Notes under the pieces: generated by a model
Database searches by the model: none
Seen by the model: only the letters and a program-made list of their open reading frames with translations
Told to the model about the DNA's origin: nothing
Shown here: positions 12,462-63,811 of the stretch, in pieces
Layout of the letters: each line of letters starts with the position of its first letter
Numbering within the stretch: position 1 is the first letter of the stretch
Origin: Desulfocurvibacter africanus subsp. africanus DSM 2603
GTDB lineage: Bacteria; Desulfobacterota; Desulfovibrionia; Desulfovibrionales; Desulfovibrionaceae
Direction: 5' to 3'
NCBI RefSeq assembly: GCF_000422545.1
Contig: NZ_AULZ01000013.1
Coordinates: 1-64,000 of the forward strand
Length of the DNA stretch: 64,000 nt
Position numbers and translations under genes: made by a program

Positions 12462-12590
12462 TAGAGCATTTTGCTTTTTAAAAATGCTCTGCAAGCCATG
12501 CGTCGGCATGGCTTGCCGCCGCATAGGCGTAGGCGCAATTCACTTGCGCCGTCAACGCCGGAGCGGGCGTCTTAAAAGCGATCTGCTCTA
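12462..12590 (+). repeat. 126-bp multi-hairpin repeat, copy 1
   Basis: First of four copies. TAGAGC at the left and GCTCTA at the right are the outer parts of terminal inverted repeats (left TAGAGCATTTTGCTTTT). Inside are four stems: AGAGCATTTT/AAAATGCTCT, GCAAGCCATGC/GCATGGCTTGC with a GTCG loop, GGCGCAA/TTGCGCC and ACGCC/GGCGT. A TA dinucleotide is at each end. The copy sits between rpoC and dedA, which converge, and is bracketed by their two terminators. Confidence 0.9.
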
Positions 12591-20286: not shown

Positions 20287-20330
20287 CCATCTAAGAAGTC
20301 ATCGATTAAAGTAGCTTGCGAATGAAATGA

Positions 20331-20405
20331 GGGTCCAGGGAAATTATTTCCCTGGCGGGAGTGGGTCTGGGAGAGGGCAGCGCCCTCACCCAGTTCAAGT
20401 GCAAA
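20331..20405 (+). repeat. Structured repeat, left edge of the islet (copy A)
   Basis: Begins GGGTCCAGGGAAATTATTTC and forms two hairpins: CCAGGGAAA/TTTCCCTGG and GGGAGAGGGC-AGC-GCCCTCACCC. A related copy in the same orientation lies at 21829-21905. Confidence 0.7.
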
Positions 20406-21730: not shown

Positions 21731-21828
21731 GTCCTCGCGAACCTGACACCGCTCAATTCACGAATTGCCGTCGTGGGGTACGAGATTGGCGGTGTAGCTA
21801 TAGCCGGTTACAAGGAAAGAGAAAAAGC

Positions 21829-21905
21829 GGGTCCAGGGAAGTCATTTCCCTGGCGGGTGAGAGTCCAAGAGAGGGCAGCGCCTTCTCTTGGTTCGACTGC
21901 AAAAT
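21829..21905 (+). repeat. Structured repeat, right edge of the islet (copy B)
   Basis: Begins GGGTCCAGGGAAGTCATTTC, parallel to copy A. The second hairpin is AAGAGAGGGC-AGC-GCCTTCTCTT: its outer pairs differ from copy A, yet pairing is kept. Confidence 0.7.
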
Positions 21906-36346: not shown

Positions 36347-36472
36347 TAGAGCATTTTGCTTTTGAAGATGCTCTGCAAGCCATGCGTCGGCATGGCTTGC
36401 CGCTAGCTTCGGCCTAGGCAATTCACTTACGCCGTCAACGCCGGAGCGGGCGTCTTAAAAGCAATCTGCTCT
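36347..36472 (+). repeat. 126-bp multi-hairpin repeat, copy 2
   Basis: Same architecture as copy 1: TAGAGCATTTTGCTTTT at the left, AAAAGCAATCTGCTCT at the right, and the invariant GCAAGCCATGC-GTCG-GCATGGCTTGC hairpin at 36374-36399. The third stem is degraded (a 3-nt deletion and TTACGCC). It has TA at the left end only. It lies between the unknown gene (start 36290) and the traR 3' end. Confidence 0.9.
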
Positions 36473-36563
36473 GGGCGAAGAGGGGAGGCCGCACGCCGCG
36501 CATCACGACCTCCTGACGAATGTCCGAGTGACCGCCCCAGCCATCTGCGGCGGCAATACCGGC

Positions 36564-50438: not shown

Positions 50439-51287
50439 ATGAAGGTCATTCGAGCGGAAACCGCCGGTTTCTGCATGGGAGTGGAGTTGGCCCTGAAGAA
50501 GCTGGACTTGCTGCTGGAGGAACGTTCTGGCAAGGGGCCCATCTACATTCTGGGGCCGATCATCCATAATCCACAGGTCTTGGCCGAGTATGCGGCCAAG
50601 GGAGTCATTACCGCCAAGTCGCCCGAGGACATTCCGGCCGGCGCTTCGGTGGTGATCCGGGCCCATGGCGTGCCCAAGGATATAGAGGAACGGTTGCGCA
50701 GGAGGGATGTGACCATCGTGGACGCCACCTGTCCCAAGGTCAAGAAGGCCCAGGTGCTCATCGCCCGCAGCACGGCCGAAGGCCGCAAGCTGCTGCTATA
50801 CGGCGAGGAGAGCCATCCCGAGGTCAAGGGCCTGCTCAGCTATGCCGCGGCGGGCGCGCACGTATTCGACGACCGCGCAGCCCTTTTCGGCATGCTCGCC
50901 AAGGATGAAAAATACTGCCTGGCTTCCCAGACCACCCAGGACCTGGTCACCTTCGAGGCGCTTGCCGGGGAGTTGGGCGAGTTGCCGGAAATGGATCTGG
51001 TGGTGCTCAACACCATCTGCGACGCCACCAAGCTGCGCCAGGACGAGGCCACGAGCGTGGCCGACGAGGTGGCGTTGATGGTCGTGGTGGGCGGGTTCAA
51101 CAGCGGCAACACGCGCCGCCTGGTGCAGGTGGTGGCCAGCCGCATGATTCCCTGCCTGCACGTGGAAACGGTCGAGGCCTTGCCGTTGGAGGAGATATCT
51201 CGCTTCGACTGCGTGGGCCTTACGGCCGGAGCCTCCACACCCAAGAAGATGATCGACGAGGTGGAGGCCTGCCTCAAGCGGCTTTAG
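50439..51287 (+). CDS. ispH: 4-hydroxy-3-methylbut-2-enyl diphosphate reductase
   Basis: A 282-residue iron-sulfur enzyme. The three cluster cysteines are C12 (AGFCMGV), C98 (VDATCPKV) and C194 (LNTICDATKLRQ). It completes the MEP pathway, giving IPP and DMAPP. AGGAGA lies six bases before the ATG. It is next to hpnH and so supplies the building blocks for hopanoids as well as for undecaprenyl phosphate. Its stop codon TAG (51285-51287) is the first three bases of repeat copy 3, so the C-terminal end depends on the repeat. Confidence 0.96.
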   Translation: MKVIRAETAGFCMGVELALKKLDLLLEERSGKGPIYILGPIIHNPQVLAEYAAKGVITAKSPEDIPAGASVVIRAHGVPKDIEERLRRRDVTIVDATCPKVKKAQVLIARSTAEGRKLLLYGEESHPEVKGLLSYAAAGAHVFDDRAALFGMLAKDEKYCLASQTTQDLVTFEALAGELGELPEMDLVVLNTICDATKLRQDEATSVADEVALMVVVGGFNSGNTRRLVQVVASRMIPCLHVETVEALPLEEISRFDCVGLTAGASTPKKMIDEVEACLKRL

Positions 51288-51411
51288 AGCAAATTGCTTT
51301 TGAGACACCCGCTCCGGCATTGACGGCGCAAGTGAATTGCGCCTATGCCTACGCCGCTGCAAGCCATGCCGACGCATGGCTTGCAGAGCATTTTAAAAGC
51401 AAAATGCTCTA
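51285..51411 (-). repeat. 126-bp multi-hairpin repeat, copy 3 (inverted)
   Basis: Inverted relative to the other copies. It starts inside the ispH stop (TAGAGC) and ends GCTCTA at 51411. The 26-nt hairpin is at 51359-51384 (GCAAGCCATGC/GCATGGCTTGC with CGAC loop) and all four stems are kept. TA is present at both ends. It lies between ispH and the P-ATPase, which converge. Confidence 0.9.
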
Positions 51412-62535: not shown

Positions 62536-63171
62536 ATGAAGCCGTTCCTCGCGTTCTGCGTGGCGGGATTCGCGGCGTTGCTCCTGGTGGGCTGCGGAGC
62601 GGAGATGGCCGGTCCAGAGGCGGTGGGGCAAGACACGAGCGCAGGGGTTGAGTCTACTGGGCGCACCACGCACGAACCCAACGGCAAGGCCAATTTTGTT
62701 TCAGCCGCGGGTGCCTTCGAGATCTGGTTTCCGGAGCAACCCAAGGCTCGCACCAATGCCGAGGAAGGCACCAAAGGTGAGTCCTATATCCTGAAAAAGG
62801 GTGACTGGGAGTATTTTGCGGGCTTTGTAACGCACAACCGTAACAGCATGACCGAACTCGTGCTGCGCCGGGCCGTGCGCTCAACCGAGGAGCGCCTTGA
62901 GGGGAGCACCACAAAAGAGCGAACCATCTGGTTTCGAGGCAACGAAGGCAGAGAGTTCATACTGCGCGAACCAGCCGAATCGCGCACCCTTGCTCGTTAC
63001 TACAACCTGGGTCCGACACTTTACATGACGCGCTTCACTGCCGGCGACTACGATTTTCCCACGGACAAGGCCCTGGAGTTTCTCGACTCCTTCAACATCC
63101 TGGCCGATCCCCAAGCTAGAATAAAGGGCGGCCTGGGCACTGCGAAAATACTAACGCCGGCCGGCGGGTAG
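62536..63171 (+). CDS. Hypothetical lipoprotein ending in a repeat
   Basis: A 211-residue protein. The ATG at 62536 (AAGGTG upstream) gives a standard lipoprotein signal, KPFLAFCVAGFAALLLVGC, with the lipidated Cys near residue 20; an earlier ATG at 62494 with a strong binding site is the alternative. The mature region (AGAFEIWFPEQPKARTNAEE...) has two aromatic-rich beta segments and no motif I know. Its stop TAG (63169-63171) is the first three bases of repeat copy 4. Confidence 0.75.
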   Translation: MKPFLAFCVAGFAALLLVGCGAEMAGPEAVGQDTSAGVESTGRTTHEPNGKANFVSAAGAFEIWFPEQPKARTNAEEGTKGESYILKKGDWEYFAGFVTHNRNSMTELVLRRAVRSTEERLEGSTTKERTIWFRGNEGREFILREPAESRTLARYYNLGPTLYMTRFTAGDYDFPTDKALEFLDSFNILADPQARIKGGLGTAKILTPAGG

Positions 63172-63296
63172 AGCTTTTGATTTTGAAAATGCTCTGCAAG
63201 CCATGCGTCGGCATGGCTTGCCGCTAGCTTCGGCGCAGGCGCAATTCACTTGCGCCGTCAACGCCGGAGCGGGCGTCTTAAAAGCAATCTGCTCTA
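63169..63296 (+). repeat. 126-bp multi-hairpin repeat, copy 4
   Basis: Starts in the stop codon of the lipoprotein gene (TAGAGC) and ends GCTCTA at 63296. The central GCAAGCCATGC/GCATGGCTTGC hairpin (63195-63220) is identical to the other copies. The left stem is altered (AGAGCTTTTGATTTTGAAAATGCTCT). TA at both ends. It lies between the lipoprotein gene and msrB, which converge. Confidence 0.9.
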
Positions 63297-63318: not shown

Positions 63319-63780
63319 CTACTCGAAAAGCTTCCGGTACTCGCCGTAGCCCTCCCGCTCCAGTTCCTCCTTGGGGATGAAGCGCAGGGCGGCGGAGTTC
63401 ATGCAGTAGCGCTGACCCGTATGAGCCGGGCCGTCGGGGAAGACATGGCCCAGGTGAGAATCGCCATGCCTGCTGCGAGCCTCGATGCGGCGCATGAGCA
63501 GCTTGTCGTCAACCCGTTCGACGATGTTTTCGGGCTCCAGTGGTTTGCAGAAACTCGGCCAGCCCGTGCCCGAATCGTACTTGTCCTTGGAACTGAACAG
63601 GGGCTCGCCTGAGACGACATCAACGTAGATGCCTTCGCGCTTGTTGTCCCAGTACTCGTTTTTGAAGGGCAGTTCGGTGCCCTCTTCCTGGGTGACCCGG
63701 AACTGCAGGGGAGTCAGCTTCTCGCGCAGTTCGGATTCGCTCGGCCGTGTATAATCGGCTGAGGGCTTTCTCGACGCCAT
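63319..63780 (-). CDS. msrB: Peptide methionine-R-sulfoxide reductase
   Basis: A 153-residue MsrB. Motifs: the substrate loop [10 protein letters not shown] (69-77), [29 protein letters not shown] with catalytic Cys126. The two CxxC zinc pairs of many MsrB proteins are absent; [17 protein letters not shown] stands there, so this is the zinc-free type. It repairs oxidised methionine with thioredoxin. ATG with GGAGG five bases upstream. An anaerobe would use it during oxygen exposure. Confidence 0.94.
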
Positions 63781-63811
63781 ATCCACCTCCGGTCGGTTAT
63801 CGTCATGAATA

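Follow-up and report, generated by a model that had tools for sequence, protein, structure and literature searches.

The question raised by this locus is why a predicted lipoprotein gene ends exactly where a short repeat begins. The 3′ end of its frame reads ACG CCG GCC GGC GGG TAG, and the preliminary description was right in that the TAG is formed by the first bases of the repeat end TAGAGC. The same occurs at another place of the window (the whole stretch of 64,000 nucleotides analysed), where a LytB gene closes with CTT TAG inside a second copy; two of the four window copies (copies 3 and 4, Table 1) thus give a gene its stop codon, as had been described. From this it had been proposed that the element prefers to insert at TA within stop codons, or that selection favours such sites. 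The account favoured here, to which we assign a probability of about 0.88, is that the repeat is an IS630-group MITE with a preference for the target context YTAR and with ends that restore stop codons, and that its copies within genes are selectively lost.

Table 1. Positions in the window of the repeat copies and of the features next to them.
Feature	Position	Strand	Basis or remark
MITE copy 1, 129 bp	12462..12590	+	intergenic
Part-copy of short repeat family B	20325..20405		
Second part-copy, same direct-repeat family as 20325-20405	21823..21903		
MITE copy 2	36347..36473	+	intergenic; last base mutated (GCTCTG)
LytB (IspH-type) gene	50439..51287	+	Pfam LYTB; stop codon from copy 3
MITE copy 3, 127 bp	51285..51411	-	empty site CTT TAA, a native stop
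Lipoprotein gene, predicted, 225 aa	62494..63171	+	gene call
MITE copy 4, 128 bp	63169..63296	+	ends TAGAGC/GCTCTA
TAG stop of lipoprotein frame	63169..63171	+	TA of target duplication plus first G of element
Right-hand TA of target duplication	63295..63296	+	next base C, giving empty site GTAC
MsrB/SelR-domain gene	63319..63786	-	gene call, Pfam; converges on copy 4, its stop 22 bp from element end

The repeat is an IS630-type MITE, that is, a non-autonomous IS630-group transposon with the ends TAGAGC…GCTCTA and a duplicated TA target. It shares its TAGAGCA ends with autonomous relatives and with elements of the sister genomes G041, G008 and G071, and it shows the TA duplication and the high, dispersed copy number by which such elements are recognized; at 128 bp it is too short to encode a transposase, candidates for which lie elsewhere in the genome. 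Across the 40 contigs (4.40 Mb) of the own genome, the pattern TAGAGC-N95..125-GCTCTA gave 171 matches versus 17 with the reversed control, and an exact 20-base core of the repeat occurs 251 times, so the genome holds at least 251 copies; an unbiased sample of 464 kb (the window plus loci L166-L185) contained 24 copies or fragments. No match was found in the plasmid and phage collections. From loci and fetched stretches, 182 distinct copies were assembled, 171 of them full length. TA was present at both ends in 167 of these 171, which form the set analyzed below (excluded were 11 partial copies and four in which one end lacks TA; for one of the 167, the left flank is just two bases long). As the set derives mainly from patterns that require intact ends, decayed copies are under-represented in it. 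One TA is duplicated at insertion, since it is seen in two nested insertions, one into another copy of the MITE (L148) and one into a family B repeat (L035): in both, the flanks joined with a single TA align without gaps to the unfilled repeat. Family B, found also at L161, L183 and L066, has similar ends (TAGAGCA and TGCTATA), carries a MITE insertion elsewhere, and is probably another IS630-type MITE. A MITE copy was also observed within about 230 bp of the starts of contigs C1, C15, C16, C23, C26, C27, C31, C34 and C39; the element probably breaks the assembly.

Listing all the copies, as had been suggested, revealed that the association with stop codons extends beyond the window. Genes called with a simple codon-usage model trained on the window enter 41 of the 167 copies, 20 through the left end and 21 through the right end, and every one of the 41 does so in frame 1, in which the TAG of the element is the stop. 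A lack of linkage to stop codons in the other copies, which would have spoken against the proposal, was therefore not what was found. When the codon model was applied to the 240 bp beside each end (334 flanks), coding in frame 1 was obtained for 39 flanks and in frames 2 or 3 for none; in 19 flanks the coding strand was the opposite one. A crude count of open reading frames without the codon model gave 59, 15 and 17 for frames 1, 2 and 3; such a count is noisy in a genome of 61% GC, so the codon model was used instead, and since it finds no coding in frames 2 and 3 the open frames there were taken as shadow ORFs rather than real genes. A further check was run with loci picked by the inner core alone (26 loci, corresponding to 25 distinct copies, as one copy appeared in two rows): genes ran into five copies, always in frame 1, and three of them were among the 17 copies new to the set.

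The phase finds a simple explanation in the empty sites, reconstructed by joining the flanks of each copy. In 37 of the 41 entered copies, the empty site contains a native TAA or TAG; the other four, including copy 4, have an empty site without a stop, and none of these is YTAR. An element that lands on the TA of a native stop is bound to recreate TAG in the phase of that stop, which accounts for the common phase of the copies. Considering all 167 copies in element orientation, the commonest empty sites were TTAG (67), TTAA (34), CTAG (19) and CTAA (15), with T or C mostly before the left TA and A or G after the right TA, so that 135 of 167 are YTAR. This context is palindromic, spells TAA or TAG on both strands, and is preferred at non-stop sites too. 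The excess of TTAG over CTAA (67 vs 15) in element orientation means that the left and the right end are unlike in their choice of target. Concerning the stop codons of the host, the predicted genes of the 464-kb sample end in TAG (164), TGA (135) and TAA (89). TAG as the commonest stop is unusual in a genome of 61% GC.

Whether stop codons are used more than expected depends on the sites they are compared with. The preliminary description took two of four copies as more than expected by chance, which does not hold for the window (at a rate of 41/167, a hand-calculated binomial gives at least two of four in about 25% of cases), while it does hold for the whole genome. In the comparison with random TA positions that had been proposed, stop-codon TAs were only 246 of 10239 sampled, against 41 of 167 copies. 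However, a null of random TA sites is too weak, as it ignores both the YTAR context and the loss of copies from coding sequence and so inflates the stop excess. TA sites outside repeats were for this reason classified in the 464-kb sample, and insertions were expressed per 1000 YTAR sites. The rate was 31.2 at stop codons (32 insertions; 108 sampled sites), 31.5 in 3′ flanks up to 300 bp (70 insertions; 234 sampled sites) and 8.0 farther than 300 bp (33 insertions; 434 sampled sites), and there were no insertions in coding sequence, with 411 YTAR sites sampled. Within the 3′ flanks, the rates were 42.5 at 1-50 bp, 31.4 at 51-100 bp, 36.1 at 101-200 bp and 14.8 at 201-300 bp. Targeting of stop codons implies a higher per-site rate there than at neighbouring sites, and stop and 3′-flank sites are used alike (31.2 vs 31.5 per 1000; Fisher odds ratio 0.99, p 1.0), with results stable at gene-call thresholds of 8, 12 and 20. 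This equality is confined to the comparison with sites close to the 3′ ends of genes. With the full set of convergent intergenic YTAR sites as reference, a less specific null under which stop codons look special, the ratio was 2.35 (Fisher p 0.003), and with the tandem intergenic sites it was 1.6-fold (p 0.07). So, a stop codon can be regarded as the tolerated 3′ site nearest to the gene.

The origin of the YTAR preference was sought among the transposases. IS630-group transposases, which carry DDE_3 and HTH_Tnp_IS630 domains and are candidate partners of the MITE, are encoded in the own genome; the one of L186 lies at the end of a contig, inside a copy of the MITE. In L186 (45-987) and L187 (1083-2013), the transposase is split, past an A-rich run, between two frames that overlap or adjoin, an arrangement that resembles IS using programmed frameshifting. 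The ends of these own-genome IS, TTAAAGCAACTTGCAA, are less like the MITE ends than those found in sister genomes, so that these transposases stay candidates for the exact partner. IS630-group transposases were found in four of the ten other same-family genomes searched (G008, G041, G067 and G071), and in three of these, which carry related MITEs (G041, G008 and G071), the transposase-element ends begin TAGAGCATTT. Among the best 80 of 174 transposase relatives, elements of about 1 kb in other phyla end in TAGAGC and GCTCTA. YTAR is the context of 35 of 37 resolved copies of such autonomous relatives in Kiritimatiellae and of 16 of 16 copies in Deltaproteobacterium FR_14, six loci of the set being without a resolved site. 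According to the codon model, genes enter the Kiritimatiellae copies in frames 2 or 3 in five flanks and in frame 1 in none, and the FR_14 copies in frames 2 or 3 in three flanks and in frame 1 in four. As these relatives use YTAR and interrupt genes, the context preference belongs to the transposase group and does not itself spare genes. The proposed insertion preference for stop codons is thus replaced by a preference for YTAR, shared with autonomous relatives of other phyla: the per-site rate at stops is no higher than in 3′ flanks, and the transposase group elsewhere enters non-stop phases. The absence of coding copies in this genome is best read as loss by selection. Selection for stop sites, the other half of the early proposal, survives in this negative sense alone, as the removal of copies inside genes.

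Related repeats occur in other genera. A sequence search of 38 other genomes gave just two weak hits, while a covariance model built on six own copies and four distant ones matched in 13 of 58 other same-family genomes, with many copies in several. An alignment of 71 matches, drawn from eight genera and ten other genomes, has 91.5% of its cells paired, and 30 of its 36 pairs are changed on both sides; covariation was strong, with a score of 0.354, compared to 0.133 when shuffled and 0.034-0.068 when slid. The covarying five-helix core was observed at high copy number in several related genera (L301, L305, L307, L304 and other sister loci). Some compensatory change could arise in the absence of selection, through hairpin-templated correction of DNA palindromes. 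As this could mimic selection and the core alignment was fitted to the model, the covariation stays short of proof, and the core is to be taken as a lead to function. In two of the sister genomes, the right end could be resolved in 15 of 21 copies (G003) and in 13 of 22 (G071), and YTAR was found in 12 of 15 and 11 of 13, respectively; genes enter these 28 copies in frame 1 five times and in frame 3 three times. No Rfam family matches the element: the window gives one tRNA only, the best hit over the element (RT-5) scored 14.6 bits versus a gathering score of 45.7, and eight sister loci gave no match. A mobile repeat with a fold conserved between genera, outside every Rfam family, is a separate lead. 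Because the five-helix core is kept by compensatory changes in at least eight related genera, with some hairpin sequences wholly changed, the fold itself may act. It is a tentative idea, and a rather doubtful one, that a folded nucleic acid (RNA or single-stranded DNA) would act for the spread of the element or for host 3′ ends, the stop-rebuilding (TA)G end being an adaptation to harmless life at gene ends.

From these results, the following course of events is proposed. A transposase would join the element ends at a TA, duplicating it, with preference for the palindromic context Y-TA-R. As YTAR holds TAA or TAG on both strands, many of the usable sites outside coding interiors in a GC-rich genome would be native TAA or TAG stops. 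Insertion into one of them would rebuild TAG in phase and leave the protein unchanged, whichever side the gene comes from, because the element starts with (TA)G at both ends. Insertions within genes would be removed by selection, and the survivors would for this reason lie either on a stop codon or a short way past the end of a gene, with the same rate per site. Of this, the copies and their ends, the target consensus, the TA duplication in nested copies, the lack of copies at coding sites and the equal rates were observed; we infer both which transposase moved the copies and that selection, not avoidance, clears the coding sites.

Two other explanations were weighed against this account. One is that insertion is actively directed, by the element or by its transposase, to stop codons or to the context of translation termination. 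The TAG phase in which each of the 41 genes ends and the odds ratio of 2.3 against all convergent intergenic sites are what it would predict; on the other hand, YTAR sites of the 3′ flank are used at the same rate, those at 1-50 bp even at a higher one than stops (42.5 vs 31.2), the autonomous relatives enter genes of other hosts in frames 2 and 3, and the preferred context is palindromic and is favoured away from stops as well, so that active seeking appears very improbable. The other explanation is positive selection, with copies being kept because the mRNA is protected or terminated by a hairpin-rich repeat that follows the stop. It agrees with the strong predicted fold (z -6.5), with the conserved covarying structure in related genera and with the enrichment of copies up to 200 bp from gene 3′ ends. 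However, stops are no richer in copies than the nearby 3′ flanks, and orientation is unbiased, both among entered copies (20 left vs 21 right) and among tandem intergenic ones (27 vs 27), an observation which is not decisive as the structure is roughly palindromic. Such a role seems unlikely as the cause of the pattern.

Copy 4, from which the question arose, is a special case. Its reconstructed empty site, GTAC, is the sole one of this kind among the 167 copies and contains no stop codon, so its flanks do not support the TAG as a native stop. The lipoprotein has no match to any Pfam family, and no relative from which its native end could be read came up in 98 other genomes of the family or in a scan of the genome collection. 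Either the unconstrained base to the right of the element mutated after insertion, or the copy made a new stop. The latter, by which the C terminus of the lipoprotein would have been shortened or replaced at this copy only, is suggested by the unique GTAC site and by the frame, which with the element removed in silico runs on from 225 to 330 codons. Yet the added part would lie antisense to MsrB, which makes it unlikely as the native end; all four empty sites without a stop are non-YTAR, which suggests later mutation of the unconstrained flank; and one of the four (L118) adjoins the apparent end of a family B element. We regard a new stop at copy 4 as credible although somewhat improbable.

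Concerning known systems, transposition of an IS630 transposon is reportedly preferential to the TA in CTAG, according to a paper of 1991. The MITE described here resembles the IS630/ISY100 group (Tc1/mariner-like) in its duplicated TA target and in the HTH_Tnp_IS630 and DDE_3 domains of its candidate partners, and differs in the wider context YTAR and in the lack of a transposase of its own. Insertion of IS630-type elements at TA with duplication is described in the passages cited (PMC2170065). A literature search (Desulfovibrio and MITEs; IS630, stop codon and insertion site) gave no paper on this MITE family among the titles listed. As outlined in parts of two reports, the ERIC or RU-1 elements of enterobacteria are alike in size (about 127 bp), TA ends, TA duplication, stem-loops and presence in several genera (PMC2759123, PMC10969869); they belong to another host group, and the comparison is by description. 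The pneumococcal RUP (IS630-Spn1), about 107 bp long and with ends like those of IS630-family IS in the cited part of the source (PMC3049150), is comparable in its short length and IS630-like ends, again in another host and by description. BOX, which in the same cited part is tied to ISSpn2 and not to an IS630-type element, shares with this MITE the supply of stop codons: 36 of 58 overlapping genes get their stop from BOX, with no strong evidence of truncation mentioned in that part (PMC3049150). Both TA targeting by IS630-type elements and repeats that supply stop codons are, then, already in print, and this MITE is an ordinary kind of element, not a stop-codon seeker. What the present analysis offers is a simple explanation, in numbers, of why repeats that target TA can lie so often on stop codons, namely a target context that is a stop on both strands, ends that restore the stop, and the loss of coding insertions, and the same reasoning can be applied to other repeats reported to supply stop codons.
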